Origin: a virus
Reading direction: 5' to 3' (one strand)
IMG/VR virus record: IMGVR_UViG_3300022874_000046
Location: 1-24,604 of that record
DNA: 24,604 nucleotides
Both the position numbers and the translations under genes were made by a program. Positions 2,361 through 23,101 of this stretch are shown in pieces; position 1 is the stretch's first letter, and every line of letters starts with the position of its first letter. The notes under the pieces are model-generated. The model saw only the letters and a program-made list of their open reading frames with translations, was not told where the DNA came from and made no database searches.

Positions 2361-2367
2361 AAGAACA

Positions 2368-3077: not shown

Positions 3078-5504
3078 CTATGCGCCATTGTTTCCGCGAG
3101 ATACTTCGTACCATTTGCCGTCAGCTTTGCAGATTAAAGTAAGTGTATCTGTTGCCGTCATTGCCCAATTAGTAGAACTACTTAAAAATATATTAGTTCC
3201 ATCTGTTATCGTAATTGATGTTTCTGCTATAAAAGTGATTATTTGTCCCTCAACTCCATCGTCAAAGTCTGTAATAGTAGTTGTACCAAGACTTCTTAAT
3301 ACGTCTGTACCCTGTATGGTAGGAGTAGCATCGGCAGTAACCATGACAGGTATTGTCTTAGCAATTATTTCAGTTTCAGGTATGTAAGTTCCACCAAACA
3401 AAGTACCGGCCAAAGTAGTGTTGTTGAAACCACTGGTAAGCATACCCTGTCTTACTGCATCTCTACCGTTATAATAAGCAGTTGAATTAACATCTATCGT
3501 AGTGTTATTCATTAAGCGAGTACGTTGAATATTATCGTTGATATAAATACTATACTCTTGTGTTTCGCTTGCCTCTCCAAAGACATTATTTTCTATTTTC
3601 CAATAGTCGCCAGTAACGTAAACACCTGCATTATTAGCTCCCTTATGGGGGCTAGAATCTGCGTTAGTATCAGTATTATTACCATGAATATAATTATGTG
3701 TTATAACATGGTTATTGCCAATATATGTAGAAGCTGTTGATGATTGTGCAATTCCATTATGAGTATTATCAAATATGTCACAGTTCTTAATAGTTACTCT
3801 CTGTGCAACATCAGGTTGCATAGAAACACCATATTTAAAGTTGCTTATTTTACAATTGTCTATTATTACACCTTCACAAGTATATGGTTTAATACCAGCC
3901 TTATCGCCACTACCTTGGAAATTACAGTTCCTAAATACAACTGGAAGTTCTAAATCGGTAGTAGATGTGATAGTTCCACCTTGTCCAGCAAGACCATTAA
4001 TATAAACTCCATTATCTTCAATGTCGCTAAGTGAACAGTTTTCGAACACTAAACCAGTTCCAATCTTCTCAGCTTCGTTTGCATTAGCCACATAATCTTT
4101 CCCTGCATCACCTGGAAGTATTGAAAAACCAGCTTTGCAATTAGTAGCATTTACTCCGGATATATAAACATTATAACAACCACGAAGTTGTATTAGATAT
4201 GATGAAGCATTAGTAAAACCAAGACATGAAACATTATCTATGGTTATATTATGTGGGTGGGTAGACCCAGTTGTATCATAAACAGTGTAACCACCAAAGT
4301 GAATATTTATAATAGCAATTGGGTTTGCAGTTGCCGAAACGAGAATATTTGAAATCTTAATATTATAAGAATCACTTGTAATGAATAGAAGGTTTCCATT
4401 AGTGGGCCGATTCGACTCTAACTCTATTCCATCGATTATAATATTATGATAACCAACACCTGAATTATAATCTCCAATTGAAACTGGACTTTGATAATTA
4501 CCACCGCTGGTTGGATTAGTTCCTGCATTTTCAATAGTTCCATTAAGTAAAGAAGTATAGTTTTGCAACTGCAAGCATTTAATAGCTCCATCAACTATAA
4601 ATATTATCTTAGATCCATTCAAATTAACAGTACAGCCATCTGGAACAACGAGAGTTGTTGTTACTTTATAAACCTTATCTGCCTCGAATATTAAATGACT
4701 ATCACCAGCCGCAGCAAAAGCCGCTGTTAACGCTATTGTATTATCAGTAAGACTTGCATCGGCAGTACCAGAAGCGTCCCCAACTGCCCCATAAGCCCTA
4801 ACATCAACCAACGGGCCTTTTGTGATAATATCTGTTGCAGTAATATCTGCAAATTCTACATCATCAGTAAGACCTAAATCTAGTGTTGCTCTTGCAGCTA
4901 AAGCGTTTGCATCATCTATAAGAGTTTTACCAAATGTTGATATATTAGCAGTTCCAGTACTCAATACGCTTGTAGTTGTTAGGTTTCCAGAAGCATCAAA
5001 TGTTACGTTCTGACCTGCTCTATCAATTGAACTTGCAAACAATGTTGTTGCTGATTCTGTATTTGGTATTTTCAAACATCGATCTATCTGCTCCTGAAAT
5101 TCCTGCGAGATCCTGGTGAGCTTGTCATAACCTTCATTGATCGCTGATGTTCTAATTATACCAGTATCAACAAAAGTAATAACCTGAGACTGTGTGGTAG
5201 ACCGCCTAATCATTAGCTCATAACTGCTCGAATAAGTCTCTGTGGTCGTGATCGTACCACCAGAAGAGTAATCGTTATTCGTTGCAGATACAGTGTAATC
5301 TGTGGCACTGACAAGTGTTTCCTGATCTCCAGTTGATACTGTCCTGAGAATAACCTGGACATCTGATCCGGTAGATACCGGCCAAGTAAAGCTGAATTCC
5401 GTTGTGCTACCGTCACCAGAAAAAGTGGCGGGTACATAGTTATCTGGTGTACTGCCAATCGCAACTGATGCGAACAAAAATAATACTAACATTTTCTTTA
5501 ACAT
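3078..5504 (-). CDS. Tailspike/tail fibre: signal peptide, T7 gp17-like N-terminus, beta-helix
   Basis: This 808-residue protein probably binds the host surface. Residues 1-18 look like a signal peptide (KK, LVLFLFASVAI, possible cut after AIG). Residues about 21-147 match the T7 fibre N-terminal domain that docks on the tail: NYVPATFSGDGSTTEFSFTW, the SATDYTV repeat, ELMIRR, and a GYDKLTRISQEFQEQIDR helix. Then comes a fibre linker with ALAARATLDLGLTDD (about 201-215), followed by a pectate-lyase-like start (VRAYGAVGDASG, about 235-246) and a right-handed parallel beta-helix to about residue 700 with many NxxIxN turns. The last 100 residues form a small beta-rich end. Beta-helix tailspikes often cleave surface polysaccharide, but no catalytic residues can be assigned. 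The site AGGAG is well placed before the ATG. Confidence 0.78.
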   Translation of the reverse strand: MLKKMLVLFLFASVAIGSTPDNYVPATFSGDGSTTEFSFTWPVSTGSDVQVILRTVSTGDQETLVSATDYTVSATNNDYSSGGTITTTETYSSSYELMIRRSTTQSQVITFVDTGIIRTSAINEGYDKLTRISQEFQEQIDRCLKIPNTESATTLFASSIDRAGQNVTFDASGNLTTTSVLSTGTANISTFGKTLIDDANALAARATLDLGLTDDVEFADITATDIITKGPLVDVRAYGAVGDASGTADASLTDNTIALTAAFAAAGDSHLIFEADKVYKVTTTLVVPDGCTVNLNGSKIIFIVDGAIKCLQLQNYTSLLNGTIENAGTNPTSGGNYQSPVSIGDYNSGVGYHNIIIDGIELESNRPTNGNLLFITSDSYNIKISNILVSATANPIAIINIHFGGYTVYDTTGSTHPHNITIDNVSCLGFTNASSYLIQLRGCYNVYISGVNATNCKAGFSILPGDAGKDYVANANEAEKIGTGLVFENCSLSDIEDNGVYINGLAGQGGTITSTTDLELPVVFRNCNFQGSGDKAGIKPYTCEGVIIDNCKISNFKYGVSMQPDVAQRVTIKNCDIFDNTHNGIAQSSTASTYIGNNHVITHNYIHGNNTDTNADSSPHKGANNAGVYVTGDYWKIENNVFGEASETQEYSIYINDNIQRTRLMNNTTIDVNSTAYYNGRDAVRQGMLTSGFNNTTLAGTLFGGTYIPETEIIAKTIPVMVTADATPTIQGTDVLRSLGTTTITDFDDGVEGQIITFIAETSITITDGTNIFLSSSTNWAMTATDTLTLICKADGKWYEVSRGNNGA

Positions 5505-5530
5505 TTCTCTTACTCCTTAATTAAGTTTTT

Positions 5531-8500
5531 CTAATTGTTAATACGTTTAATTACCGACTGAATCCTGTTGAAATAATTAACCCTTTTATCTTCATTTTCA
5601 GTATCATAGATACGTCGTGCTATCTCTGAGATATTGCTACTGATAGTATTATATTTCCTCACAAGCCTGATGTCTGTATCTGTCTCATCTCCTGATTGTA
5701 TTCTGCGTTTAATTAAGGTCTGGTCTGCGTAAAATTTTGCAAGGTCTTTTTTTAGTTCGTCTAAATTATCTTCTGGTTGTATTTCTTTTATGATTTTACG
5801 ATGTAGTTTTTCATATGTAACAAGGTGACTTTTATATTGGCTTTCACCTATTTCAAAGTTTTTCAACCAGCCAGAATCCTTTTTAATACTGTCTTGGAGT
5901 TCTTTGATATCTTTATGATGTTTTTCCGGTGATTCTGAATATTCTGCCAACTTTGCCTTGTCGCCTAGGTATCTATATACTTTATTGGAGGTGATTCTGT
6001 CAACATCGATAATCAGTTTAGATTCGTATTCATCTTTTATACTTAGCGGAGTTATAGGATTGTTAAGTATTTTCATAACAGTTTTGTTATAATTCTTAAT
6101 ATGTTCTCTTGGATTTTTTAGCGTTCCGAGATAATAATAAAGTCTTTCCTGTTGATCTCTCATTGAGAAGATTTGACTTAATACTTCTATTTCTCGTTTA
6201 TCTTCTTCGCTTTTAGCAAGTCTTACACCAGTCAATGTCATAGCTGCCGACAATGCTATTCCTGTACCTTTCTGTCGTACCTGTTGGAATACGTTAGTCG
6301 AGATCGGTTCACCCTTTTTGAGTTCATGTATGCTTAGTTTCAATGTCTTTTTAATAAATGAATCTGTAATCTCAACTATCCTGTCACCCTTGTAGTCATA
6401 AAGAGCCTTGCCCATTGATAGCTGGTTAATATCAGAAATAACGTCCCATGTTGTTGATGTCATACCACCGAGTCGTCTGACTGTCCCTCCTATAGCTTTT
6501 CCAGGTTGTAGAGTTGCAATATTACCAAATACATCCCAGTAGTCTTTATCGTAACTAAGTATGTCAATCATTATCCTACGTCCATTTTTATCAACATGTC
6601 CTGTATCTATCTTGAATATGTCTCTAATATCTTTTAGGGTTTCAGGTTTTTTTGGCGTCTTTCCAGTAAAAATCATCGTACCTATAGTTGCAGCAGTAGC
6701 AGATATAATAAAGGAATTTATAATATTAGCCCTTGAACGACCTGCTTTAAATCCTGTGTCACCGCCCCATTGTAGAATTGATTTCAATATTGATCTAAAG
6801 TTACCTTCCGCAAAACCAGGAGCCATAAACTTAAACCTGAGAAGCGTAGTTACTGTTCCAGATCTACCGAACAATCTCTCATTCATCATCCCATAGAAAT
6901 TCTGTTGTTCTTTAATAATATCTATTTTTTCAGCAGACGTTAAAGAACGTCCTAACTTTATTTCATTCTCCCTAACTCCATCAAGAAATTTACCATACTT
7001 GAGTTTTGGGATATAACTTTCAAACATCCACTCAACGAATTTTTCTGGAAGTTGGCTTGCAAACGCAGCTCCCTTTACAACCTTTCCAGCACCAGTGATT
7101 CCCATAGCATCATTTATCTTATCAATAGTATTTGAGAAAGCCCTTTGTGCCTCTGAATCTATGCTATATCTATGACCGCCACCGTGAAGAACATAGTCTT
7201 TATATTCAGGTGTCTGGAATATCGGATCGCTCTTTTTAAATCCGGTTGTTGCTCCCCTAAGAGCAGTTTTTTTATGCAGGAATCCAAGATAACCACTATC
7301 AGCAAGAGCTTGTTTTGCTTCAACACCTAAATGGAAAGCACTACCAATAAACTTAACAGTTCTAAGAAAATTGTTTACTTGCCTGATAGTATTAAGTAAT
7401 GGCTGTCTTGTAATTTTATTTGTAGATATAAGATTGTTTATCATCTTTGCCAATTCAGGAGCTAATCTGACATCAGCAAAAACAGGGTCATTTACTTTGT
7501 CCCAATCAATAGAAGCACCTTCTGTTATAGCAATATACTTTCCTTCACCTGATTTCATTAAGGCATCTTTCATACTAATCATACCGTCAAGTCTAGCAAT
7601 TGCCATATACTCGCTTCTCAAGTTGTTTATAGGGTTAGAATCTCGTAAGTCAAGACCAAAAGCTTTAGCGTCTGCAACTGTTGGTAGTTTCTTTTGCTTA
7701 GTGAATCTCTTTGTTGTTTTCCAGTAGTCTAAGAATTTTTCTACTTTTCGTGGGTCTTTATAAAGACCATAAAAATAATCTTCAACATAACCTATTTTAT
7801 CACCTACTACCTCTGTCAGATAATCATAGTTAAAATCTGATATTCGGGTAATCATCTTACGAGTGCCAACCAGTTCAGGTGCATCTTTAGCTAATTGTTC
7901 TAATGCTTCAGCCTGAATAATTTTTGCACTTTCTGAAACTGGCTTTCCTCTCGATAACATTAGATTTTCAAGTATCTTATTTGAATATTTGCTTAAAGCC
8001 TTACCGTATTCGCCAAGAGTTCCATCAAGACTTTCAAGTTCTTTTTCGTTAAAGTCTATCATGGCAACATCAGCCCTATGAACGCCTTTAATAACCTCGG
8101 CATAAACATCTTTGCCCTGTGCTATCTCAACAGCCTTAGACGGTTCTATAACCGACATAAATGCTTCGTGTATCTTAGCAAGGGGGGTTACGTCAATGAA
8201 GCCACCTTTACCTTTTAATATATCTGGCTGTTTAATTTCTTTAATAAGTTCTGGATTAAATACTATTAAATTGTTTGTTGGTTTATTAGTAGTGCTTGGG
8301 TGGTAGTTATCTTTGATATTCTTTAAGATAAGGCCGTCATGCCCTTCTTGTATCGCCGTTTTTATGTCATTATTAACTGTTTTTGTCCATTGTTTTCCTT
8401 GTAAATCAATGACTTTAGGGTTATAAAGCGTAATTTCTCTTTCAACAACTAATGGAACTGAGTTTTGAATATCAAATGATGGCTTATCGGCATAAGACTG

Positions 8501-11500
8501 AGCGGTACTACGGTTATCAGTGAAAGATACTCCAATGTTTCCGGTTACACTTTTACCTTTAAACCCTTGTTTTATTCCTCCATGTAAAGAAATAAACTCA
8601 TCATTCTCTGGTAGTAATTCCGGTGCATCTTTAAAGTATCCTTTTTTATTTGGGTCAAATTCAGGTAAAAATCTACCATCTGGTGTACCATGAAAAGCCT
8701 TTAAAGTGACTGGTTCGCCTGTTTTAACCTGTTTAACTTCTTTCTTAATTGGCTTTTCAGCTATTTTAGGTTCTACTGCCTTTTCTGCAGCCCGCTCAAG
8801 AGGTAACTGTTGAACTCCTGAACCGTCTGGAACCCTGAGTTTTCCGGGGCCTTCTGTCCACTGTTCGAGAAGGCGATTTGTGACTTTCGTAAGATTTTCT
8901 TTTGTTGAGTTCTTTGCGTATTCTTTTGTTGCTTCATTTAAAGCCTCCGCTACTGCGCCTTTGGCATTTGCAAGTTTTTCCAGCATAAACAAGACTTCTT
9001 CAGCTTGTTCTTTAGCGGCAATGTTCTCTACCTTTTTAAGAATATTACCCTTTGCCTCTATTATACCGGTTGATTTTGCAAGTACACCAAAAACTTTTTT
9101 ATTTGTTTTAAGTTTCTGTTCTATGTTTGCTAAAACCTTTGCCCTTTCAGCATAAAGACTCTTTTCGGTAGTCTCTAATCCGAATAAAGTATGTTCTGAT
9201 GTTGTTAATACTGGTGCTGAGTTTATGGTAGCTGATAATAATTCAGCTTGCCTAACAGTATCAATCTCACCCTCAAGAATAAGGTCAGCTACTTGTTTCT
9301 GCTGTGCATCGTTTTTAACGTTCCTACCGATAGGTGCTGCAAAATTGGCAGGTAGTTTTTCGTCAACCACCAACCTAAACACATAATCAGATAGGTCTTT
9401 CATATCCATACCCTGTTTGACAATAGCGTTATTAGTCGGTACGCCCTGTTTTTTAAGCTTATCGATGGTTATATCTGAATCTCTAAATAGCTTTGCAGCG
9501 TCAATAGCAGTTCCTTTGCCATCTGCAAGGTTTCTTAATGCTCCTGTGGCTCTTGCGTCTGCTGAAGTCCAGCCGTCTACTTCTCTAATTACCCATGTAT
9601 TAAGACTCTCCGCGCCTGTCTTTTTGGCAAGTGCTACCCTGTGATGTCCGTCAACGACAAAATATTTACCTGCCTTATTCTGCCATACTAAGACCTGACC
9701 AGCTTTTACAGGGTCAAACTTATCAACCTCTTGCAATGCTTCAGTAACCCCACCAGCCAGCTTTGCGCCTAATTTAAACTGGAACGTCTTAGGGTCAACA
9801 TTGATCTGGTCTGTTGGTATTGTTGTCGGGGTATATGTTTTACCGCCTACTTGTACTGGTTTACCTACCCCCTTTTCCACCTTCCCTTGTGCTTGGGGCT
9901 GGGAGGGGGTGAGTTGTATTATAGGAACAGGTTTATCACCTACCATACTTTTTATTTCTTCTTGAGGATTAGCAGAATTATATATAGTAAAAGAGCGTGT
10001 CACGTCCGCTTGAGAAATACCGAGTCTTGTGGCTATTTCCTTAATTGTTTCCTTTGAAGGACGGCCAAAAGAATCATTCAGTTGGCGTGTCGATGCAATT
10101 TTATGATATTCGTCCGTTACCTGCTTGGAAAAAGACCACCAATTTTTATTTTTCTGTGGCATTTCTGATATAGGTTTCCAACCATCAGGAGTTTTGATTT
10201 CTATATTTTGCGGTGGTATAGTATTTTTTGTTGCTTCATTTAAAGCCTCCGCTACTGCGCCTTTGGCATTTGCAAGTACACCAAAAACTTTTTTATTTGT
10301 TTTAAGTTTCTGTTCTATGTTTGCTAAAACCTTTGCCCCTAGCACCTTTACTTCTGTAGGCACACTATCGGGCTTAGTAGCGGGCGTTTGGACGATAGGT
10401 GTAGACGTAGGCTGTGGAGTTCCGGCTACTGGCTTTTTAACAGGAGCTATCTCTGTAGGTTTAATAGGAGCCGCTTTTGCAGCTTCTTCAGTTGCCGCCT
10501 TTGCACCAGAGTTCCAATAAGCGTTTATGGAAGCGTCTTTTTGGGCGGCCTTTGTAATTTCATCACCAACCATTCTAGTCACTTTCTTTAGTTTAGCGAC
10601 ATCAGCAGCGGTAGGATCAACTCCAAACCGAGCTTTAAACTGCCTCTTAGCCTCATTAAGCAATTCATCTGAAAAAGGTTTACGTCCATAGTTCATCAAT
10701 CGTGGAAAATTTTGCCAAAGTGACGTATATGCTTGGCTTGCTATAGTCTGTGCTTTCTGTCCAAATTTTGTAGCTATAGCTATTTTTCCAACAGCACCAG
10801 CAGCAGGACTAATCGCGGAAAATCCTGCGCCCCATAAAGCCCCAGCCCACGCAGCTTCTGATTTATCTTCACCTTTTAAAGCTGCACTACTAGCACTCCA
10901 AGAAGCTAAAAAAGCTATGTTCTCAGGAGCAAATTTAAGAAAAGCGGCAATTCCATCATTAGCAACTTTTTTTAATCCAGCCCTACTTAAAGTATTTAAT
11001 ACCTGTGATCCACCAACTAAGGCAATTTGTTTGGTTACAAAACGAGACGCAAGTTTCTGACCTGATGAAGTTAATAATTTGTGAAGCCCAGTTACTTTAA
11101 ATATACCTTTCATAGCATAATATTCAGTTATTTTTTCTGCTGAATATCCTACAAGTTCAGGGCCCTTTGTGTACCAGTCTGGATTGTTTACTAACTCGTC
11201 TTCATATATGCTCAATGCTTCTTTTCTTGTAATAAGTCCCGCTTCTCTTGCTGCTGTTGCTCCTACTCTGTTTAGGATGTGTCCACTAGCCATATAAGCA
11301 TCAAAAGCGAATCTCTTAACTGGGTTCATATCCCAGTAGTGTTCTGGTTTAGCTCTGCCGGTATAGCCAGCAGTAAAGAATTTATTCCAAAATCCAGGTT
11401 CTTCTCCAGCTATCAGTTGAGGTTGTTCAGCTGGTAAAGGTTCTTCTGGTTGTGGTAAATCATCTGGGTCAATAACGTTAGGATTCCAGTTTGAAATTTC

Positions 11501-11689
11501 ATCGTAGTTTTGTTCAACTGTGCTGATAGGTAACTGCTGGTCAACAGATATATTCTGAATATCTACACCTTTTGTGTAAGCTTCGTCTGGTGTTTCGTCA
11601 CTGACAGGTTTTTCTTCTAAGGCAAGAGCAGTATCCCAGACAGATCCTTTTGCAGAGTTACGTTTTTTAGCTTCATCCCATACGCTCAT
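5531..11689 (-). CDS. Giant polyvalent internal virion protein with ParB-like and ADP-ribosyltransferase-like domains
   Basis: At 2052 residues this is the largest gene, in the T7 gp16 position after gp14- and gp15-like genes, so it is probably ejected with the DNA. Layout: start repeat SVWDEAKK/SVWDTAL (2-9 and 16-22); helical region with hydrophobic stretches (100-390); Pro/Thr linker (405-445); repeat copy 1 (452-488); ParB-like domain around INVDPKTFQF (629-638) and VVDGHHRVALA (678-688); repeat copy 2 (850-922); ADP-ribosyltransferase-like domain from LKAFHGTPDGRFLPEFDP (996-1013) through NIGVSFTDN (1051-1059) to NLIVFNPELIKEI (1140-1152); then a C-terminal region (about 1400-1760) resembling large-polyvalent-protein domains (LLNTIRQVNNFLR, IGSAFHL) with a hydrophobic segment at 1654-1676; and a coiled-coil end. 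I see no transglycosylase motif like that of T7 gp16. Start: AAGGA upstream; the ATG overlaps the stop of the gp15-like gene by 4 bases. Confidence 0.7.
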   Translation of the reverse strand: MSVWDEAKKRNSAKGSVWDTALALEEKPVSDETPDEAYTKGVDIQNISVDQQLPISTVEQNYDEISNWNPNVIDPDDLPQPEEPLPAEQPQLIAGEEPGFWNKFFTAGYTGRAKPEHYWDMNPVKRFAFDAYMASGHILNRVGATAAREAGLITRKEALSIYEDELVNNPDWYTKGPELVGYSAEKITEYYAMKGIFKVTGLHKLLTSSGQKLASRFVTKQIALVGGSQVLNTLSRAGLKKVANDGIAAFLKFAPENIAFLASWSASSAALKGEDKSEAAWAGALWGAGFSAISPAAGAVGKIAIATKFGQKAQTIASQAYTSLWQNFPRLMNYGRKPFSDELLNEAKRQFKARFGVDPTAADVAKLKKVTRMVGDEITKAAQKDASINAYWNSGAKAATEEAAKAAPIKPTEIAPVKKPVAGTPQPTSTPIVQTPATKPDSVPTEVKVLGAKVLANIEQKLKTNKKVFGVLANAKGAVAEALNEATKNTIPPQNIEIKTPDGWKPISEMPQKNKNWWSFSKQVTDEYHKIASTRQLNDSFGRPSKETIKEIATRLGISQADVTRSFTIYNSANPQEEIKSMVGDKPVPIIQLTPSQPQAQGKVEKGVGKPVQVGGKTYTPTTIPTDQINVDPKTFQFKLGAKLAGGVTEALQEVDKFDPVKAGQVLVWQNKAGKYFVVDGHHRVALAKKTGAESLNTWVIREVDGWTSADARATGALRNLADGKGTAIDAAKLFRDSDITIDKLKKQGVPTNNAIVKQGMDMKDLSDYVFRLVVDEKLPANFAAPIGRNVKNDAQQKQVADLILEGEIDTVRQAELLSATINSAPVLTTSEHTLFGLETTEKSLYAERAKVLANIEQKLKTNKKVFGVLAKSTGIIEAKGNILKKVENIAAKEQAEEVLFMLEKLANAKGAVAEALNEATKEYAKNSTKENLTKVTNRLLEQWTEGPGKLRVPDGSGVQQLPLERAAEKAVEPKIAEKPIKKEVKQVKTGEPVTLKAFHGTPDGRFLPEFDPNKKGYFKDAPELLPENDEFISLHGGIKQGFKGKSVTGNIGVSFTDNRSTAQSYADKPSFDIQNSVPLVVEREITLYNPKVIDLQGKQWTKTVNNDIKTAIQEGHDGLILKNIKDNYHPSTTNKPTNNLIVFNPELIKEIKQPDILKGKGGFIDVTPLAKIHEAFMSVIEPSKAVEIAQGKDVYAEVIKGVHRADVAMIDFNEKELESLDGTLGEYGKALSKYSNKILENLMLSRGKPVSESAKIIQAEALEQLAKDAPELVGTRKMITRISDFNYDYLTEVVGDKIGYVEDYFYGLYKDPRKVEKFLDYWKTTKRFTKQKKLPTVADAKAFGLDLRDSNPINNLRSEYMAIARLDGMISMKDALMKSGEGKYIAITEGASIDWDKVNDPVFADVRLAPELAKMINNLISTNKITRQPLLNTIRQVNNFLRTVKFIGSAFHLGVEAKQALADSGYLGFLHKKTALRGATTGFKKSDPIFQTPEYKDYVLHGGGHRYSIDSEAQRAFSNTIDKINDAMGITGAGKVVKGAAFASQLPEKFVEWMFESYIPKLKYGKFLDGVRENEIKLGRSLTSAEKIDIIKEQQNFYGMMNERLFGRSGTVTTLLRFKFMAPGFAEGNFRSILKSILQWGGDTGFKAGRSRANIINSFIISATAATIGTMIFTGKTPKKPETLKDIRDIFKIDTGHVDKNGRRIMIDILSYDKDYWDVFGNIATLQPGKAIGGTVRRLGGMTSTTWDVISDINQLSMGKALYDYKGDRIVEITDSFIKKTLKLSIHELKKGEPISTNVFQQVRQKGTGIALSAAMTLTGVRLAKSEEDKREIEVLSQIFSMRDQQERLYYYLGTLKNPREHIKNYNKTVMKILNNPITPLSIKDEYESKLIIDVDRITSNKVYRYLGDKAKLAEYSESPEKHHKDIKELQDSIKKDSGWLKNFEIGESQYKSHLVTYEKLHRKIIKEIQPEDNLDELKKDLAKFYADQTLIKRRIQSGDETDTDIRLVRKYNTISSNISEIARRIYDTENEDKRVNYFNRIQSVIKRINN
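8924..9144. repeat. Direct repeat copy 2 (full, 221 bp), C-terminal flank of the ParB-like cassette
   Basis: The two ends of this stretch (8924-8975 and 9075-9144) are identical to 10226-10277 and 10269-10338. The 108 bases in the middle have no counterpart in copy 1. TTTGCAAGT occurs at 8967-8975 and 9075-9083, exactly 108 bases apart, marking the endpoints of the missing part. It encodes residues 850-922 of the polyvalent protein. Confidence 0.9.
10226..10338. repeat. Direct repeat copy 1 (113 bp, deleted form), N-terminal flank of the ParB-like cassette
   Basis: All 113 bases match copy 2 once 108 bases between two TTTGCAAGT motifs are removed; the single remaining TTTGCAAGT is at 10269-10277. 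It encodes residues 452-488. The offsets to copy 2 (1194 and 1302 bases) are both multiples of three, so recombination between copies would keep the reading frame. Confidence 0.9.
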
Positions 11690-13326: not shown

Positions 13327-13357
13327 GCTTCTCCTATTATTTATCTTTTACTAATTA

Positions 13358-14475: not shown

Positions 14476-17273
14476 TATGGCCTCACTTCAAAATCTGGAA
14501 TTAACTCTATTACCGACATTGGCAATGGTATATTCTGTTCAATACATATCGAAGAATCTCTCGTATAAGATCCTTCAAAGAATCCATATTTATCGCCAGT
14601 ATAAATTGGCACAGCTTCATCAATACGATCTTCTGCATCACGAAAAATGAATGGCGTTAGGTTATCAAAGTCAGGGCCATACTCTGCTCCAACTGTTTTA
14701 TAAAACTTGACACCAAGCTCTGTTATCCTAACAACCGCATTCGCTACACCCTGATTTGCTTTGACCTCTAATCTCATAGGTTTTAGCTTACTGATATAAC
14801 CCAAACCTGCAACAACTTTATTGTAATAATCGTCAAGTGTTATGATACCGCCAGAAACCTCGTATGTTCCCGCATAAGCAGAGTCACCCAGTACCTGAAC
14901 ATCTTCACCTTCAAGATGACTTAGAGTTGTGAAGCGATTCTCTACTTGATATACAGACCCTCCTAAAGTGTAAGCTGTAAAGTCAACACTATTGATATCA
15001 ACAGCGCCAGTCTTATCTTCAAGGCTAAATGTATTAGTTGTGGCATCGTCAACTGTAAACACTTGACAGTTAAGCTCAGTCATCCCGGCAACAGACTCAA
15101 ACCTGACTTGATCGCCATCGCTAAAACCATGAGATGCTGCCGTGACAACAGCTGGATAAGCTTGGGTAATACCAGTGATTGTAGCGGCACTACCGCCGTC
15201 AAAGGACAACCCAGAGTCAACAAAAAACATATCGCTCTGATCAGTTCCCCAGTCTATTGGCTGAAATTGCTCTATATACCGAACTGTGGATCCGTTTATC
15301 TCTCTCTCAATTGATATCCAAACTTCATCTTCACCATCACCTGGAATCACTGCAATAGATTCAACATCTCCATCGAGGATCTGTCTTGACCAGCCAATAA
15401 CATCCTGACTTCTCTTATACGTCATAGTTGCGATATAACCGTCTGAAGTGCAACACCATAGAATAGGGTCGGGTGTCTTCTGAAAAGCGATCTGAGTGAT
15501 ACCCTGGCCTGTTACATGTTCTGATAGAACTGTCAAGTCTGGAGAAACGAATGCATCCTGGTCGTAAGAGAAAACAAGCTCCCTTGCTTTCTTGCCCTGC
15601 CTTTGGACATATAAAACCACGTTGTCAACTGTTACCGGCTGTATCATATCAGAACCGTAACTGGACTGCCTTCTTACGGATACTTTGGTTGGTGTGAGTG
15701 CTTCATCAGATGAACCAGATCCTATCTTCCATTCAGCTGAATTAGTGCCAATAAGCAACCAGTCTTGAGGAACAATCCACCTGATGACATCTACCTGATC
15801 AGATGCGATCTCATATATCAGAGCATCTGAGTCATTACTGCCGATCAGGAAGTTTTCCCAGTCAGCTGTCTGAGAGAACCATATTGTTTGTGGTAGCTCT
15901 TCAGTTCCTGCTAAAACTAGTCTCTCCTCGTAGAATGATATCGCTGATGGATATCCCTGGCTTGGACTCCATGCACCTTCTGACCATAACTTCGATGCTG
16001 TGATCCCGCCAGGTGCAGTCTTAACTATTGCAGTAACCTCATTGGCATCAGTAATTGCTGTTATCTTTGCTACCATCGTAACCTTAATGCTCTTCGCTAC
16101 CAGGGAATATCTTAGAGATCCTGATGTATAATCAGACATTCTAACACGATAGATTGCATCGTCAACAATCTCATCGTCTGGATAGGTGATATTACCATCG
16201 CCTTCATAGTGTGTGGTATAAGCATCTTCCCACTGTGAGCCACCATCAAAAGATCTCTGGAGTATAACAGTTCCAGTCCAAGTGCCATGAGTGCTAAAGA
16301 CGTAGCTTCGGCCATATTGCATTACAAGAGTATCTGAAACGCCAACCGCTGAAAATGTCCCCTCAATTGATTCCGACTCCTGGATATGATTGATACCCCA
16401 GATCGCACCAACATGATCAGCTGTCCACAGATCATCAGATGATATGAGTGTAACAGCCCCATCAACAACCACAATATCACCGTCAACAACTGCATTTGTA
16501 ATATTGCCTGTTACTGTGACTATGAAGTTTGGAGAACTATAGGCAACACTCTCAACTGTCCATGTACCGTCATTGCCGGTAGATCCAAAAACCTGAAATG
16601 TCTTAGCGTCAGTGAAAACAGTATTAATATCTGTAGCACTGTAAATTGTAAAAGTATCTTTAGTGATGTTAACACCTGTTATGATGTAACCTTCTGTTGT
16701 GACCGTAGTGTCAGTGCTATTCTCGTCAAGGAAGGGGCCTCGCTCAAACTCGATCTCAGTTAATGACCAGTCAGTATGGCCTGACCGAGTTAGCTTGGCT
16801 GGTGGGTAATCTGAGTGGACAATATAGAATGTGTCAGCTGATTGGATCATCTGCAACTCAAATACATCATTGCCGTCATAAGGCGTAGTGATCTCATAAG
16901 CAGCTGCTCCGTCAAGGATCTGGCCACCGTCTTTATAGAACCGAGCATACTCATGCCCAAACTCAATTATATAAGCCTGCAACTGGGAGTACTCAAATGA
17001 AGCAAGCCTACAGGGTACCGATGAGTTTTTAGCAGTGGTAATGTATTTTGTACCGGGTCTTCTGGTAGTACCGCCATAAGAGAAGCAGAACATATTCTCA
17101 AGAGTTCTGCAACCACTGTAATACTTGGCAATATCTGTTCTACCCTCCAACAAAGGTGATAACTCACCTGCATTAAATGAGTTGATCACGCCTACATGCG
17201 CAAAGGCCGAAGTGTAAACACTTGACAGAATTAAAAATAATATCAGTTTTTTCATAGTCGCTTTCTTTGCCAT
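14475..17273 (-). CDS. Tail nozzle / tail tubular protein B-like, with signal peptide
   Basis: This 932-residue protein shows the standard start of phage nozzle/stabilisation proteins, INSFNAGELSPLLEGRTDIA, then CRTLENM, GGTTRRPGTKY and FGHEYARFYKDGG, and a FYEERLVLAGT motif in the middle. It should form the tail tip below the gp11-like adaptor, as T7 gp12 does. In front of the normal start lies MKKLILFLILSSVYTSAFA (Met-7 onward), which looks like a Sec signal peptide with an AFA cut site. Translation may start at Met-7 (17255). Residues about 695-775 (GITQAYPAVVTAASHGFSDG, GMTELNCQVFTV, NTFSL) look like an E1-FCCH-type beta domain often found in phage tail proteins. The start overlaps the upstream stop as TAATG. 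Confidence 0.72.
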   Translation of the reverse strand: MAKKATMKKLILFLILSSVYTSAFAHVGVINSFNAGELSPLLEGRTDIAKYYSGCRTLENMFCFSYGGTTRRPGTKYITTAKNSSVPCRLASFEYSQLQAYIIEFGHEYARFYKDGGQILDGAAAYEITTPYDGNDVFELQMIQSADTFYIVHSDYPPAKLTRSGHTDWSLTEIEFERGPFLDENSTDTTVTTEGYIITGVNITKDTFTIYSATDINTVFTDAKTFQVFGSTGNDGTWTVESVAYSSPNFIVTVTGNITNAVVDGDIVVVDGAVTLISSDDLWTADHVGAIWGINHIQESESIEGTFSAVGVSDTLVMQYGRSYVFSTHGTWTGTVILQRSFDGGSQWEDAYTTHYEGDGNITYPDDEIVDDAIYRVRMSDYTSGSLRYSLVAKSIKVTMVAKITAITDANEVTAIVKTAPGGITASKLWSEGAWSPSQGYPSAISFYEERLVLAGTEELPQTIWFSQTADWENFLIGSNDSDALIYEIASDQVDVIRWIVPQDWLLIGTNSAEWKIGSGSSDEALTPTKVSVRRQSSYGSDMIQPVTVDNVVLYVQRQGKKARELVFSYDQDAFVSPDLTVLSEHVTGQGITQIAFQKTPDPILWCCTSDGYIATMTYKRSQDVIGWSRQILDGDVESIAVIPGDGEDEVWISIEREINGSTVRYIEQFQPIDWGTDQSDMFFVDSGLSFDGGSAATITGITQAYPAVVTAASHGFSDGDQVRFESVAGMTELNCQVFTVDDATTNTFSLEDKTGAVDINSVDFTAYTLGGSVYQVENRFTTLSHLEGEDVQVLGDSAYAGTYEVSGGIITLDDYYNKVVAGLGYISKLKPMRLEVKANQGVANAVVRITELGVKFYKTVGAEYGPDFDNLTPFIFRDAEDRIDEAVPIYTGDKYGFFEGSYTRDSSICIEQNIPLPMSVIELIPDFEVRP

Positions 17274-18874
17274 TAGTCCACAGTTACCATTACACCACCA
17301 CCACCCGAACTGCCTCCAGCCGATTCTGCTGATATAATATTAGAAAAATTATCCTGCGTGCCATCAAATCCGTAACTCATCGGCACCATTTTATTTTTAA
17401 TTAAAGCCCCGCCGCCGGCAGTGTCATTTAAATAAAAATCAGTTGACAGTGAGTATGAACCACCAGCATTTAAGAACGGACATGCTGACAGGCTTATTGT
17501 TCCGAGATCATAGCTTGCCCAGTTGCTTTCATTTGCATCGACGTTGCCGATAAAATTATTAAAAAGATAAGCACAAGTTTTATTTGTTGCTATCCCGTTA
17601 TTGTAAATCCCGTAAGCACCTGATGCGTTATTACCCCATATTATATTATTGAAAACACATATCCTGTGGATGTCCGCCACATCTGGCAATGTGTCAAAAT
17701 GAAATCCCGTCTTAAAATTACGAATTATACAGTTGCTGAAACAGCTTGATGAAGCTGTACTTGCAAGTGAACTGATATAAACGCCAGCAGCAGTATTACT
17801 CTCGCCTGCTGTAATTATGCAATTGCTGATCCCGCAGTCATAGCTTCCGTTTAAATCTACCCCTCTGCATTGATTGGCAAAAATAAAACAGCCTTGCATA
17901 TTTGTATACTCTGTTTTTACGGCACCTTCAGTCGCAAGCGTTCCCATTGAGCTTATCTTGCAATTAATCAGGGTGGTTCTTTTAGGATAGATAGCACAGG
18001 CAGATGATGAACTTGTCGAAGTATTATTTATTACACATTGACGTAATAACAATCCGTTGCTTCTATTACCATAGACAACATTGGTCGTATTTATCCCTGT
18101 CCATTTTATATGCTTATATTCGACTCTTAAACTTGTGGTTCCGCCACTTCCAAGCGTGAAAACATAAGCGGCCATATTGATAGTCGGCATATCATCTTCG
18201 TCGATCAGGTTGGCTGTAGTCTCATCTATCGGCTGAAAACAGTTATCAGCAGTTTCACCGTCATATGTTGTCCCGACGTATCGCAAACGACCGGTCAATG
18301 TTGAATTTGCGAGCATTGAAACCGCACCTGTCGCAGTCTCATCTTTATTAAAGAGTACATCAACCGAATAGCTTGCTGCGTCAATATGGGAGCTAATATA
18401 GTCGTCACAATTTTCTATGCTTAATATTACAGAACCTTTATTAGCAGCACCACCAACGGAAACATCGAAAGTGCCATCCTCAACAATACCACCCAACTCC
18501 GCAAGGTAACCATTGTCTATAGTACAATCAGCACCACTTCCATTATCTGTAATCTTATAATATCCATATGGCGGATTATTCCCCGTTACTCTTGTAAGAA
18601 AAATATATGTTCCAACAGTAACACCAGAAAAATCTCCAGAAACCCTTGAACCACCTGCAAAATATTCTACATTCGCAGCAGCTAAAGTAACCAGTGGCAA
18701 ACCATTTGCGTCCATAAAATCAGACGGATTACCCGCGTCCCAGGCAGTTTTTGTAACAACACCAGGAATAGGAGTTCCTGTCTGATCACCAGTGCCCCCT
18801 GCAAACATTACTAAATCAGCTGCACAAGTAAAACACGCCATAAGTAATATCAATAAAATTATAGTTTTTCTCAT
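17273..18874 (-). CDS. Exported-looking right-handed beta-helix structural protein
   Basis: I place the start at 18874 (533 residues): TTAGGA lies 6-7 bases upstream, whereas the longer ATG at 18901 sits inside the preceding gene without a site. Residues 1-18 form a signal peptide (MRKTIILLILLMACFTCAA, with an LMAC that also resembles a lipobox). Residues about 250-470 have repeated turns of the type NCKIS, GCFIFANQCRGV, NCIITAG, NCIIRNFKTG and FNNIIWGNNASG, typical of a right-handed parallel beta-helix. The end is Gly-rich (GGSSGGGGVMV). It may be a receptor-binding or tail-decorating protein; enzymatic activity is not apparent. It lies between two tail-tube genes, so it is probably a virion part. 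Confidence 0.62.
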   Translation of the reverse strand: MRKTIILLILLMACFTCAADLVMFAGGTGDQTGTPIPGVVTKTAWDAGNPSDFMDANGLPLVTLAAANVEYFAGGSRVSGDFSGVTVGTYIFLTRVTGNNPPYGYYKITDNGSGADCTIDNGYLAELGGIVEDGTFDVSVGGAANKGSVILSIENCDDYISSHIDAASYSVDVLFNKDETATGAVSMLANSTLTGRLRYVGTTYDGETADNCFQPIDETTANLIDEDDMPTINMAAYVFTLGSGGTTSLRVEYKHIKWTGINTTNVVYGNRSNGLLLRQCVINNTSTSSSSACAIYPKRTTLINCKISSMGTLATEGAVKTEYTNMQGCFIFANQCRGVDLNGSYDCGISNCIITAGESNTAAGVYISSLASTASSSCFSNCIIRNFKTGFHFDTLPDVADIHRICVFNNIIWGNNASGAYGIYNNGIATNKTCAYLFNNFIGNVDANESNWASYDLGTISLSACPFLNAGGSYSLSTDFYLNDTAGGGALIKNKMVPMSYGFDGTQDNFSNIISAESAGGSSGGGGVMVTVD

Positions 18875-18881
18875 ATTTTTC

Positions 18882-19880
18882 CTAATCAACATTGGCATCA
18901 AACCAGCCGGTTATAGTTAACTTTACATATTCAGGTTCATCAGTCGTATCAAAATCAATAGCAAGTAAATGGTCTGTCTCAATAGTGTCATGCGTGATTA
19001 CCGTATAAGTAGAATAAAAACAAGATGTTCCATCAGTAGCTATCTCAACCGCTTGTACTGTAGTTAGTGACGTAAAGTCAGTCATGCTTGTTATTTCTTC
19101 AAGCTCAAGGCTAACATCGTCAGTATCACTCCATGCGTATATTTCCTCAATGTGGAATGTGAAACCAGAAGTATTATGCCACACTGGAATAAGATCGGCA
19201 GCAGCAATATCGGCAGGTGCTATTAAGGTTATATTCAAATGCTTAATCTTTTGGGATGCCATAAACTGATTAGTGCCATCGTAAGACCGCATAGAAACAT
19301 CGTTAGGCTCATTGCCAGCGTCAGTATCAATTGAAACCTCACCAAGAGCATCAACGTCAGGGTCAGTGCCATTAGGAAGCTCTACGGAAGTTGCACCGCC
19401 CAAATCATGCACCCCTAACCAAACTGCGCCATCAGCCTTATTCACAAGAGCTTTGTCAGCTACCACAGAATCTATTTCTGCGAATGTATTTATATCACTA
19501 CTTGCCAAAAATCCCTGACCTGACCAGTCACCCCAACCGTAAGCCGTATCCCACTGACCTACCTTAGTAGCGGTGACTGTAGCAGCATCAATGGTTATGC
19601 TAGTTGTGAATGTCGGGGCGGTTGCAAAACATAATGCACCCGTTCCAGTCTCGTCTGTTACTATTACAATCATCTTAGCTGATGTGTCAATAGTGTCGAA
19701 CATATTAAGAACTGTTATCTTTTTAGAAGTGGCAGTCCCTGCAACATCGTCAACAACGTACATAACATCTGCATTGTTAACAGTTGTCAGTTCAGCAAGA
19801 TCTGTAACCTTAGTATCAGCTGCAAATATGCATGAGGCCATTAGTAAGATCAATAGTATTGTTTTATTCCTGTAAAGCAT
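18882..19880 (-). CDS. Unknown exported-looking virion protein (332 aa)
   Basis: Starting at the second ATG (19880) gives 332 residues; a start at 19889 would add three. The start is a signal peptide (KTILLILLMASCIFA, then AADTKVTDL). The mature start, KVTDLAELTTVNNADVMYVVDD then TSKKITVLNM, is a pattern I associate with phage tail or capsid-surface proteins that begin with a short peptide followed by a beta-rich stretch. The rest is beta-rich and acidic, with GWGDWSGQGFL (about 115-125) and a C-terminal domain containing a Trp-rich beta pattern. I do not recognise a named family. Its signal peptide is almost the same as that of the next gene. It overlaps the 176-residue gene by 17 bases. Confidence 0.55.
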   Translation of the reverse strand: MLYRNKTILLILLMASCIFAADTKVTDLAELTTVNNADVMYVVDDVAGTATSKKITVLNMFDTIDTSAKMIVIVTDETGTGALCFATAPTFTTSITIDAATVTATKVGQWDTAYGWGDWSGQGFLASSDINTFAEIDSVVADKALVNKADGAVWLGVHDLGGATSVELPNGTDPDVDALGEVSIDTDAGNEPNDVSMRSYDGTNQFMASQKIKHLNITLIAPADIAAADLIPVWHNTSGFTFHIEEIYAWSDTDDVSLELEEITSMTDFTSLTTVQAVEIATDGTSCFYSTYTVITHDTIETDHLLAIDFDTTDEPEYVKLTITGWFDANVD

Positions 19881-20394
19881 TATCACCACTTTCTAATAAA
19901 AGTTTATCTCCGGTTTCAAGTAGTAACCTAGCAGCAGGTGTCCAATCTGATATTGCTACCCTTCGCCATGTGTTTGTTGATACACAGATATAGTAGTAAT
20001 TTTCGTCCCATGCCATCTGTCCTTCTAGTCCGGTAGTTGTTGGATCCGATGGTATAGCTGATGCAACAAAGGATAGATTGTCACCTGTCAAGTCAATTGG
20101 AGATGTAGCTGTTAGGTTAGTATAGTCTGATATGTCAAGCTTAGTTGTCAAACTTAGCTCATTGACCATAAGTACACTTGAATCTTCATCCCAAAATAAC
20201 TTACTAACGTCAGAAAACTGCCATGTATCAACATCCCAGTAAAGCATCTGTCCTTCAGACGTACCAGGTATAAGATCAAAATCTGCAATAGTTCTGTGTT
20301 GCATCTTGTTCGCCTCATCAGTGAAGTCCCTGTCATGCAAGGTAGCAGCTGGCAAGCAAGAAGCTATTAAGAGTAGAGCGAACAATCTTTTCAT
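19864..20394 (-). CDS. Unknown small exported-looking protein with LLLE-GD C-terminal repeats
   Basis: The 176-residue protein starts MKRLFALLLIASC, with IASC matching a lipobox and LPAA a possible type I site. It continues DRDFTDEANKMQHRTIADF, has EGQMLYWD and EGQMAWDENYYYICVSTNTW (a beta motif often found at the ends of phage tail proteins), and ends with a short repeat LLLETGDKLLLESGDNALQE. That C-terminal motif recurs in many phage structural proteins. The function is unknown; a small tail or fibre component, perhaps an adhesion or oligomerisation part, would fit. GAGGA precedes the ATG, and the start overlaps the stop of the gp11-like gene. Confidence 0.5.
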   Translation of the reverse strand: MKRLFALLLIASCLPAATLHDRDFTDEANKMQHRTIADFDLIPGTSEGQMLYWDVDTWQFSDVSKLFWDEDSSVLMVNELSLTTKLDISDYTNLTATSPIDLTGDNLSFVASAIPSDPTTTGLEGQMAWDENYYYICVSTNTWRRVAISDWTPAARLLLETGDKLLLESGDNALQE

Positions 20395-21047
20395 TACACC
20401 GTCCTCAAGATAGTAGTTGTTTGACTCAGATTACCCATTGCATTATTTACTAGATCATCAACAGATGTACCTTTTCTTTCGTCATAACCAAGCTCCATTG
20501 CGTTTGATTCCTGCGCAACATACATCGCATCCTTGACTGCCTCAAAGAGATTCTTCGTCTTTGTCTTATCTCTCTTGAGTGGTTCAGCGAGCAGATAGCC
20601 AATGATCGTAGAGATCAACTTAGCAAAGTAAGCTGGATAACAGCTTTCGTTCTCCCTGAACAAAATGTACCGCAAATAGATAGGGCTTGTGTCATCTGTC
20701 AACAGAACATCAACCTGCCTGTTCCTACTATCAATAAAGACTTCCCTGCGGAATTTCTTCTCTTCATTATCATCAGTAGAGTCAACCACAGCGATAGGCC
20801 TTATGCAATCAGTAGGTATGTTATACATATAACTGTAACCACTTGTAGGAGTCTCTGATCTATTCGCAATTGTTGTCCTGGATGTGCAGAAGCACCAGTC
20901 AGTTGGAAAAGCAAAAGCTTCCTGCCGGGCAAATGGATAGACCGCTAATGCTTTCTTTCCTTCAGGTGATTTATCAGTAAGAGAAGTCATAGGCTCTGCG
21001 CCAACTAACAACAAACCGGCATTAAGTATTTCTAACTTGGTGAACAT
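20394..21047 (-). CDS. Tail tubular protein A (T7 gp11-like adaptor)
   Basis: The 217-residue protein has the typical start of gp11-type adaptors, EILNAGLLLVGAEPMTSLTD then ALAVYPFARQEAFA and the FPTDWCFC strand, followed by YNIPTDCIRPIAV, FIDSRNRQV, IYLRYILF and a C-terminal helix with LAEPLKRDKT. T7 gp11 is 196 residues. It forms the ring between portal and nozzle, so it marks this as a podovirus-type tail. It has no signal peptide, in contrast to its neighbours on both sides. AAGGAG lies 8 bases upstream of the ATG. It overlaps the 176-residue gene by one base. Confidence 0.75.
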   Translation of the reverse strand: MFTKLEILNAGLLLVGAEPMTSLTDKSPEGKKALAVYPFARQEAFAFPTDWCFCTSRTTIANRSETPTSGYSYMYNIPTDCIRPIAVVDSTDDNEEKKFRREVFIDSRNRQVDVLLTDDTSPIYLRYILFRENESCYPAYFAKLISTIIGYLLAEPLKRDKTKTKNLFEAVKDAMYVAQESNAMELGYDERKGTSVDDLVNNAMGNLSQTTTILRTV

Positions 21048-21066
21048 GTGTCAACTCCTTACATAA

Positions 21067-21972
21067 TTAGTATCTTCTGCCGTAAACTGTCAAGTCTCCT
21101 GCCTGCTCACCAGTGGCGGCATCCGCATCATAGATAATAAACTGTAACCACTCAATGCCAGTCAAGTCCAATACAATTACAGCAACCTCATTGGTAGTGG
21201 AATTGTATACCATTGGATTTGCGCCATCGCCATCAACATCTAGAGGCCACTTGGTTAATGCGGTGATTACAATTGTATCAGCCCAAAACGCAGGATTGAT
21301 ATCTACCTTCACAGTAGTGGTTGCAATGTCTGCTGTTGACGTAGCTGCTGTCATTGTAATGTTATTTGCATCCGTCACAGCGGTTATAGGATAGAAACCT
21401 GACGTAAGATTACCCTCATTGGGACTTGTCACATAAGCCATCATCCCAACTACCGCACCAGAGAACCCACCATCAGTCACTGTAAATACATCACCAGTAT
21501 GAACATAATTAGCATCAGATACTGAGACATCGCTACCTAATGCATCTGACCCGTCATGTGGATACTTAACAACTGACTGAGTACCTAAGATACCTGTACC
21601 ACCTGCTATGTGCTGAAGCATTCCATTGGTCTTAGACCAACCAACAATGTCATAGCTGAATGTATCGTTAACCCCATTGTAACACTTACCACAGATCGCA
21701 AACATCCACCGGCTGCCTGCCGAATAACCCTCACTGATTGTCTCATCTTTATTAGTTGAGAGTATCCTGAAGGGGCCGCCAAGAGCTACGGTATTGCTAT
21801 CCTTACTTGCAAAGTCACCGTCAGTTGTCAGGTCGTAAACAGCAGCAAATGTTGCACCATCCTCATCAGCTGTAGCACGAACCATATGCCAACTAGAATG
21901 ATAAGTATCGAGTGGTAAGGCAAATGAAGCTGTCACTATTATTATAATCAAAAAAACAATTAGCTTTTTCAT
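21067..21972 (-). CDS. Unknown exported-looking virion protein (301 aa)
   Basis: I use the ATG at 21972 (301 residues), with AAAGG upstream; the longer frame to 22260 would read through the terminator hairpin and the end of the previous gene and is not credible. Residues 1-17 are a signal peptide (MKKLIVFLIIIIVTASFA), very similar in shape to that of the nozzle gene. The mature part is beta-rich (WHMVRATADEDGATFAAVYD, GFYPITAVTDANNITMTA) and ends with a strand-rich segment (IEWLQFIIYDADAATG). I recognise no family. It sits between the beta-helix gene and the gp11-like gene, and is followed by a one-base-scale spacing to the adaptor gene, so a virion role is likely. Confidence 0.5.
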   Translation of the reverse strand: MKKLIVFLIIIIVTASFALPLDTYHSSWHMVRATADEDGATFAAVYDLTTDGDFASKDSNTVALGGPFRILSTNKDETISEGYSAGSRWMFAICGKCYNGVNDTFSYDIVGWSKTNGMLQHIAGGTGILGTQSVVKYPHDGSDALGSDVSVSDANYVHTGDVFTVTDGGFSGAVVGMMAYVTSPNEGNLTSGFYPITAVTDANNITMTAATSTADIATTTVKVDINPAFWADTIVITALTKWPLDVDGDGANPMVYNSTTNEVAVIVLDLTGIEWLQFIIYDADAATGEQAGDLTVYGRRY

Positions 21973-21990
21973 TCTTATATACCTTTCGTA

Positions 21991-22024: not shown

Positions 22025-22030
22025 TTAATA

Positions 22031-23101
22031 TTAACCACCATCATCAGCAGAAGCAGCACCAATAATGCCACCTGTAGCAGCACTTCCTTCATCTTCATTA
22101 TAGTAATTCTCAAATAGATACATGTCTGCAGCAACAACAGAAGCAGCTTTAGTCGCAAGATTACAAACAATGTAGTTCCCACTAATAAAACCTGTAGTGG
22201 TCGCAACAACCTCAATTCCTGGCTGAGCATTGAGTCCGGTGTTACCGCCAATAGTACCATTGAACAATAGATTGTCCTTGATAACTATGAAGTTACTTGC
22301 AGTTGTTATCTGATTGATATTAGCAACTGCATAATCACCAAATGATGTATTGCCCTTAATCACCATGTTGTCGCTGTCTTTAATACTCATAGCAGCGTTA
22401 CAAGCACCAGCTCCCATATCAAAATAGCAGCCAACTATTGTAAGCCTGTCAGATGCAGCACCTGGAGAATCTATGCACTCAAGGAAGTCATCGGTTCCTG
22501 AAGCTTCAAGATCAAACCGGCAGTTAGCAATGGTCACTCCTGAAGATCCAGCCTCAATATCTATCGCTTCATTAACATCAGTGATATTCGCATGGAAGTT
22601 AAGGTTGACAACAGTAACATTGTCGGCACCAATAGCAAAGGCTCCAGTAACAGTGCCTGTGAAGTCAAACTTCGGTTGCAAGCCACCATTGCCAAGACCA
22701 ATTACAGTTACACCCGCTACATCAATATCGACTTCATTGGCAGCTGCTCCCATAGTTTCAGTATGACCTTGAGCAATTAAGATTACATCACCGGCGCTAG
22801 CAGTGCAGAGATCTACCGCATCGTCAAGTGTAGCTACAGCGTTAGTCCAGCTAGATCCATCGCCCGCTGAAGATAGTCCACTGTCTACATAATAAACACT
22901 GCCCGTCCCTACATTGATACCAAGCTCAACCAGCTGGTCAATGGCATTCATCCAGTGCCAAGCTGTATCCTTAGTCACAGATCCTGACAGCCAATTGGCA
23001 TTAGGTTTTACACTAATGTTGTAAGCAGTAGCATCAGCCTGCGCAGTTACGCACAAAGCCATCAACACAAACAACATTAAAAAAATCGTTACTAGTTTCA
23101 T
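22031..23101 (-). CDS. Exported-looking pectate-lyase-like beta-helix protein
   Basis: The 356-residue protein starts with a signal peptide (MKLVTIFLMLFVLMALCVTAQA, cut after AQA). After a short linker it has VYYVDSGLSSAGDGSSW (about residue 68), ATLDDAVDLCTA and GDVILIAQGHTETM, then a series of beta-helix turns (VTVIGLGNGGL, NVTVVNLNFHANIT, GVTIANCRFD, LTIVGCYFD). This module (YYVDSG.....G.SW....ATLD.A) is common in phage structural proteins encoded beside capsid genes. No catalytic residues can be claimed. It ends in DDGG. AGGAG precedes the ATG. It lies between two hairpins, next to the capsid genes, so expression may be high. Confidence 0.62.
   Translation of the reverse strand: MKLVTIFLMLFVLMALCVTAQADATAYNISVKPNANWLSGSVTKDTAWHWMNAIDQLVELGINVGTGSVYYVDSGLSSAGDGSSWTNAVATLDDAVDLCTASAGDVILIAQGHTETMGAAANEVDIDVAGVTVIGLGNGGLQPKFDFTGTVTGAFAIGADNVTVVNLNFHANITDVNEAIDIEAGSSGVTIANCRFDLEASGTDDFLECIDSPGAASDRLTIVGCYFDMGAGACNAAMSIKDSDNMVIKGNTSFGDYAVANINQITTASNFIVIKDNLLFNGTIGGNTGLNAQPGIEVVATTTGFISGNYIVCNLATKAASVVAADMYLFENYYNEDEGSAATGGIIGAASADDGG

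Follow-up and report, generated by a model that had tools for sequence, protein, structure and literature searches.

Tailed phages are taken to complete their virions in the cytoplasm, with the Sec pathway of the host reserved for lysis and membrane proteins. The signal-arrest-release and secreted endolysins are tailed-phage proteins which use host Sec, and the coat proteins of filamentous phages (pIII and pVIII of M13) carry Sec-type signal peptides and are assembled at the envelope. The stretch of DNA considered here, referred to as the window, is the uncultured virus record IMGVR_UViG_3300022874_000046, a metagenomic contig of 24604 bases. It resembles the T7-type podovirus tail system (portal gp8, adaptor gp11, nozzle gp12, fibre gp17) in its gene set, its gene order and its nozzle, adaptor and fibre families. 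In T7 the tail parts are added after DNA packaging, and the closed portal retains the DNA before tail assembly (PMC6702177). The nozzles of T7 and of the Pelagibacter phages compared have no signal peptide; in the window both nozzle and fibre begin with one, whereas the adaptor and, in relatives, the portal do not. We regard the presence of an export signal on the nozzle and fibres as nearly certain. Its occurrence on these proteins and never on head parts suggests tail production outside the inner membrane, with late joining to the head.

The nearest annotated relatives of the window nozzle, at about 37 to 41% identity, are found in the Pelagibacter phages HTVC035P and Skadi-4, in Caudoviricetes vir555 and in Manatee Spring podovirus MW202898. 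Their module order is that of the window and their nozzles begin MARVA.. or MAKVS.. directly at the domain, the Pelagibacter-phage start being MARVA..NFTGGELSP. The late genes of the window lie on the minus strand, from the capsid gene (23614-24573) through to the fibre gene (3078-5504), ordered as in Pelagibacter-type podoviruses: capsid, phrog_427, two extra genes, adaptor, three extra genes, nozzle, GNAT-like, gp14-like, two internal proteins and fibre. The T7-like succession of capsid, adaptor, nozzle, acetyltransferase, gp14-like, internal proteins and fibre is present.

Signal peptides were assessed with a three-region scorer of our own, which considers the positively charged n-region, the hydrophobic h-region and the -3/-1 site. 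It was trained on signal peptides of E. coli, for which leave-one-out scoring gave a median of 20 and a 10th percentile of 12.7. Among 34 cytoplasmic proteins of E. coli the highest score was 6.3 and the median -10.7; the values for two annotated secreted proteins were 13.6 and 18.2, and those for two membrane proteins -4.2 and -15.6. A first-pass annotation of this DNA had assigned Sec-type N-termini to eight late genes and none to the genes at 23614, 23162, 20394, 14029, 11686 and 5531. All eight are found at the coordinates given, on the minus strand, with scores of 10.0 to 22.6, against -19 to 5.7 for the other late genes. By this E. coli-calibrated measure the eight combine n-region positive charge, an h-region and small -3/-1 residues, as expected of Sec substrates of signal peptidase I. 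The six genes named as lacking a signal score at most 5.7 (-19.0, -9.7, 5.7, -19.3, -16.6 and -6.4 in the order given), and the small gene at 2752 scores -0.8. Ribosome-binding sites precede most of the window starts. The annotation had further described the segments as additions to normal virion domains, which is borne out by the nozzle, 22 residues longer at this end than those of the Pelagibacter phages, vir555 and MW202898. The eight genes and their predicted signal peptides are as follows, a slash marking the predicted cut.

14475-17273, minus strand: tail nozzle (gp12-like; phrog_376 E=2.9e-198; family profile against PDB 8ck1 Tail Nozzle E=6e-156); signal peptide 17199-17273, minus strand, MAKKATMKKLILFLILSSVYTSAFA/HVGVINSFNAGELSP, score 22.6
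3078-5504, minus strand: tail fibre with T7 gp17-like N-terminal domain (phrog_1640 E=8.4e-13; weak Pfam Phage_T7_tail E=0.0083); signal peptide 5454-5504, minus strand, MLKKMLVLFLFASVAIG/STPDNYVPATF, score 13.2
22031-23101, minus strand: beta-helix protein, after the capsid and phrog_427 genes (AlphaFold, Foldseek); signal peptide 23036-23101, minus strand, MKLVTIFLMLFVLMALCVTAQA/DATAYN, score 20.2
21067-21972, minus strand: predicted exported protein preceding the adaptor gene (family alignment A6); signal peptide 21919-21972, minus strand, MKKLIVFLIIIIVTASFA/LPLDTYHSSWH, score 15.6
19864-20394, minus strand: tail-fibre-like protein between adaptor and nozzle (phrog_17312 tail protein E=6.9e-10); signal peptide 20347-20394, minus strand, MKRLFALLLIASCLPA/ATLHD, possible lipobox IASC, score 17.1
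18882-19880, minus strand: tail-fibre-like protein between adaptor and nozzle (phrog_9729 tail fibre E=1.5e-4); signal peptide 19821-19880, minus strand, MLYRNKTILLILLMASCIFA/ADTKV, score 10.0
17273-18874, minus strand: beta-helix-like protein between adaptor and nozzle (repeat pattern read in the sequence); signal peptide 18821-18874, minus strand, MRKTIILLILLMACFTCA/ADLVM, score 14.6
13358-14032, minus strand: gp14-like internal virion protein (phrog_418 E=5.6e-26); signal peptide 13964-14032, minus strand, lineage-specific, score 15.3

The nozzle assignment is firm, given the agreement of the family profile with the solved structure 8ck1 (Tail Nozzle). A cysteine lies near the cut site in the genes at 19864 (IASC), 17273 (MAC) and 18882 (ASC), so that lipoprotein processing of these three is possible; none is present there in the nozzle, the fibre or the proteins at 22031 and 21067. 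The leaders of 17273 and 18882 are alike at the DNA level and may be paralogous. Similarity among the other leaders is much weaker, and the copying of one leader among genes was rejected, since strong DNA similarity is confined to this pair.

The distribution of the signal among protein families was counted over signal-positive genomes, near-identical contigs included. The 22031 family carries it in 12/12 cases, the fibres in 8/8 and the nozzle open reading frames (ORFs) in 30/35, the remainder being partial ORFs or mis-called starts. Most other genes flanking the adaptor on either side carry it too. No signal was seen on capsid (0/24), portal (0/12), scaffold (0/22), adaptor (0/27), GNAT (0/24) or phrog_427 (0/14) proteins, nor on the internal proteins (0/11, and 0/13 for the two giant families). 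A homologue of 22031 in MW202647 also lacks one. The gp14-like signal is confined to the window lineage and near-identical contigs, is marginal in L009 and L095 and is missing from most relatives; it is a lineage-specific feature. Hence the earlier proposal that a subset of virion proteins is addressed in this way stands as to the carriers, which are real, but the subset is not an arbitrary one: it consists of tail exterior parts, with the gp14-like protein outside this core. The dividing line falls between portal and adaptor, without signal, and nozzle and fibre, with it, and matches the order in which the T7 tail is assembled on the packaged head (PMC6702177). A need for disulphides was rejected as the reason for export, the cysteine content of the exported proteins not being specially above that of non-exported proteins of the same phages. 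As a separate observation, cysteine is almost nil (0% on average) in the gp14-like and internal virion proteins of signal-positive loci, unlike capsid and adaptor.

Nozzle and fibre signals vary together. Their states agree in 44/44 genomes in which the two genes could be recognised, 8 having both and 36 neither, with no discordance (Fisher 5.6e-9, not corrected for kinship). In one genome nested within a positive clade (G511:C12, support 0.98 to 1.0), both nozzle and fibre are without signal. Its fibre begins M followed directly by TVASSESIRES, where the sister has ...AAATVPAGETIRE; it thus starts exactly at the cut site of its relative, which is where the loss can be located. Two further cases concern divided nozzles. 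The nozzle of L087 is spread over three ORFs, each piece with its own signal, the third of which (MNKRLKMLKIMVLFACCFLCRTGWA) is not homologous to nozzle sequence; a search of other contigs yielded no second copy of this split nozzle, which leaves a single contig as evidence for the split. L134 has a second nozzle-like ORF that corresponds to the C-terminal part and likewise opens with a signal-like segment of its own.

The signal is a trait of a clade. A scan of IMG/VR with nozzle alignments yielded about 160 loci, metagenome contigs with simple gene calls in which a few starts were re-chosen; 159 nozzles were scored, and thinning at 85% identity left 113 non-redundant. Scores over the 159 are bimodal, either 10 or more or mostly below 6. 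Signal-positive nozzles make up 20/113 and fall almost entirely within one region of the tree, in a few well-supported clades (0.97 to 0.999). One comprises the window, L007, L008, L009, L093 and L094 (support 0.97), another L011, L134, L015, L165, L145, L161 and L138 (0.998) and a third L115, L139, L126, L150, L130 and L143 (0.999). Parsimony suggests 4 changes of the nozzle signal, gains and losses counted together. Among non-nozzle genes of at least 100 amino acids at the other loci, the share with a score of 10 or above is 3.7% at loci with a signal-less nozzle, versus 19% at those with a signal-bearing one, which argues that the window signals are not due to chance. Close relatives lacking the segments had been named beforehand as grounds for abandoning the idea; all close relatives carry signals, except G511 with its paired loss. 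No member of the signal-bearing clade is among the best matches in the annotated phage collection. Some podoviruses with an ordinary nozzle have one or two signal-bearing late genes (L003:21710-24430, L006:24278-26014, L042, L131 and L153), and export of accessory fibres may therefore be wider than the clade.

Whilst the signals, the retention of their function without conservation of sequence, their restriction to certain proteins and the joint variation of nozzle and fibre can be read from the sequences, export, cleavage and the timing of joining are what we infer. In the mechanism proposed, the outer tail parts, namely the nozzle, the fibre and the beta-helix or spike-like proteins beside the adaptor, would be synthesised as precursors bearing cleavable Sec signal peptides, and Sec would carry them into the periplasm. 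The cytoplasm would meanwhile be the site where head, portal, adaptor and ejection proteins assemble and DNA is packaged. Removal of the leader by signal peptidase would restore an ordinary nozzle N-terminus, and nozzle and fibres would join the DNA-filled, adaptor-capped heads once the compartments meet, most likely at the breach of the inner membrane during lysis. Since the closed T7 portal holds the DNA before the tail is present, delayed joining would be tolerable. Sec export and cleavage of the nozzle, fibre and beta-helix or spike-like parts, with joining to DNA-filled heads at or after the breach, is the account we consider on balance probable.

Several observations weigh against this account. 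Heads left unsealed might lose their DNA, and no mechanism is known that would let a tailed phage finish its tail beyond the inner membrane. The signal calls come from our own scorer and from sequence alone, and the cut sites of some signals are weak or ambiguous; a few of the proteins may be lipoproteins. G511 retains signals on two or three other late genes despite its signal-less nozzle and fibre, so the exported proteins need not all share one complex, and L131 and L153, which lie near the clade, have signals solely on genes preceding the adaptor.

The foremost alternative, which we consider unlikely, is that the signals are uncleaved anchors which tether nozzle and fibres to the inner membrane, where heads dock and virions mature. 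Some of the cores are indeed very hydrophobic, that of the gp14-like leader reaching a maximum Kyte-Doolittle value of 3.73 over 11 residues, and the nozzles of L009:5096-7798 and L095:9995-12697 end in a hydrophobic stretch and basic tail (IRPVDLIPVSLASMWFIGFMVRRRNRKKFEGVE), resembling a C-terminal membrane or sorting anchor. The estimated h-cores of the positive nozzles, however, mostly span 7 to 15 residues, less than expected of a membrane anchor, and Ala occupies -1 in 13/24 nozzle signals. The leaders have also diverged whilst the mature starts directly past the cut are conserved, most clearly in the 21067 family (4 relatives). In homologous nozzles the signals are more diverged than the following 60 residues, and pairs with well-conserved mature starts have a signal identity of about 0.26 to 0.5. 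Random drift to 35% identity kept a signal in 46/1160 trials (4%), in a simulation which ignores the score-based choice of positives. The predicted cut, moreover, gives a normal nozzle start: the distance to the FNxGE motif has a median of 9 residues from the cut, compared with 10 from the first Met in 121 signal-less nozzles. In the window nozzle 7 residues separate the predicted cut from FNxGE after a 25-residue leader, so that the uncut protein does not start at the nozzle domain. The short h-core, the diverged signal before a conserved mature start and the restoration of a canonical start favour cleavage. The earlier formulation, exported or membrane-tethered, is in this way narrowed to a cleaved, exported peptide, with tethering less favoured.

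It is also conceivable, if improbable, that the exported copies serve the cell surface, in blocking superinfection or digesting glycans, whilst virions are built from signal-less copies made otherwise. Several of the exported proteins are beta-helix or fibre-like, some nozzles have a LamG lectin-like insert, and a signal-bearing nozzle gene adjoins a host kinase in an apparent degenerate prophage. Apart from the duplicated or split pieces of L087 and L134, however, no second, signal-less nozzle gene was seen. A dual translation start was rejected as well: no internal start with a ribosome-binding site was found downstream of the nozzle signal, so a signal-less isoform would not arise by that route, and dual localisation would need inefficient export. 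Less credible again is the idea that the hydrophobic N-termini are working parts of the virion, such as membrane-inserting tips for infection. Podovirus gp14-like proteins are naturally hydrophobic N-terminally, but the same type of leader occurs on proteins that differ in fold and is not found on the ejection proteins which would need it most, and the n, h and c regions are kept despite divergence. Chance hydrophobic starts or mis-called start codons can be all but dismissed. A few relatives did require a start other than that chosen by the simple caller; the bimodal scores and clade-wide recurrence refute this explanation, and the upstream ribosome-binding sites and the nozzle–fibre concordance also speak against it.

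The remaining late genes of the window, all without signal, are these.

20394-21047, minus strand: tail adaptor (tail tube A; phrog_394 E=1e-29)
23614-24573, minus strand: major capsid protein (Pfam GP7 E=1.2e-48; phrog_212)
23162-23575, minus strand: phrog_427 protein adjoining the capsid gene (phrog_427 E=4.3e-6)
14029-14475, minus strand: GNAT-like gene (position and phrog_4177 E=7.3e-5)
11686-13326, minus strand: internal virion protein (position and homologues)
5531-11689, minus strand: giant internal virion protein (phrog_21 and phrog_10691)

In the giant internal protein KVLANIEQKLKTNKKVFGVLA and NAKGAVAEALNEATK each occur twice; there is also a weak match to ART-PolyVal (E=0.0027), as found in polyvalent proteins of phages. 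Residues 711-777 of the window nozzle form an insert matching Pfam E1_FCCH (E=1.3e-11), also present in L009. The nozzle of L230:3240-7094 has a large Laminin_G_3 (lectin-like) insert, absent in T7-type nozzles; the long nozzles of L126, L130 and L143 are similar to it in length and may hold this insert too. Foldseek matched the AlphaFold model of 22031-23101 (mean pLDDT 73.6, pTM 0.74), at modest TM-scores, to beta-helix polysaccharide lyases and adhesins. The model of 21067-21972 (pLDDT 45) is too poor for use, and 17273-18874 had no family match in phrog or Pfam profile searches. Plus-strand genes (window 113-2685) converge toward the late block, with weak matches to endonuclease and resolvase families at 1204-1674.

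The hosts are probably members of one family of Phycisphaerae (Planctomycetota), a claim made with moderate confidence only, because phage contigs can be mis-binned. An unbiased scan of 84,980 species genomes returned one signal-positive nozzle, in a Phycisphaerae metagenome-assembled genome (MAG; L165, G001). The contig is 44.7 kb long with a 127-base terminal overlap, and so looks like a complete phage genome. Nozzle matches occur in 8/89 genomes of the GTDB family of L165, versus 9/397 sampled class-wide and 11/392 phylum-wide. In G780, a third MAG of the family, the contig that holds a signal-bearing nozzle also encodes a sensor histidine kinase (Pfam). On this contig (L230, G780:C389, 269-7441) the nozzle adjoins the kinase and a fragment which, read by eye, resembles an IS110-type transposase; after this stretch comes a phage gene whose paralogue lies in a different phage block of that genome. 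L230 looks like a degenerate prophage or a chimeric contig. LamG matches are common in genomes of its bacterial family. A Planctomycetota-wide trait was rejected, as most nozzle homologues in other Planctomycetota genomes are without signals. Spacers of clustered regularly interspaced short palindromic repeats from 397 Phycisphaerae genomes gave weak matches to the window, none convincing, and the tRNA genes offered one tRNA-Met and nothing else as a clue. The wider proposal, of a virion built in two compartments, its nozzle and receptor-binding parts folding and being processed in the periplasm before they snap onto full heads at lysis, with phages of one Planctomycetota family as the main carriers, stands in our judgement evenly balanced.

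A limited literature search found no report of signal peptides on tailed-phage tail structural proteins, and to our knowledge no other tailed phage makes its tail outside the inner membrane and joins it late to the head. The finding raises the questions of whether a podovirus tail can be completed outside the inner membrane and of what retains the DNA until then, and it links to a poorly known host group, the Phycisphaerae. The precursors could supply natural means for exporting large phage receptor-binding complexes. The endolysins which use Sec are lysis enzymes, whereas the signal-bearing proteins of the window are virion components. In this they are like the filamentous phages, whose virion proteins also have Sec-type signal peptides. 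The filamentous phages, however, extrude a tube of coat protein without lysis; in the window clade the capsid carries no signal, icosahedral head, portal and adaptor would be cytoplasmic, and the signals are on the tail exterior. If true, Sec-routed nozzle and fibres would represent a new way of assembling the commonest virus form.

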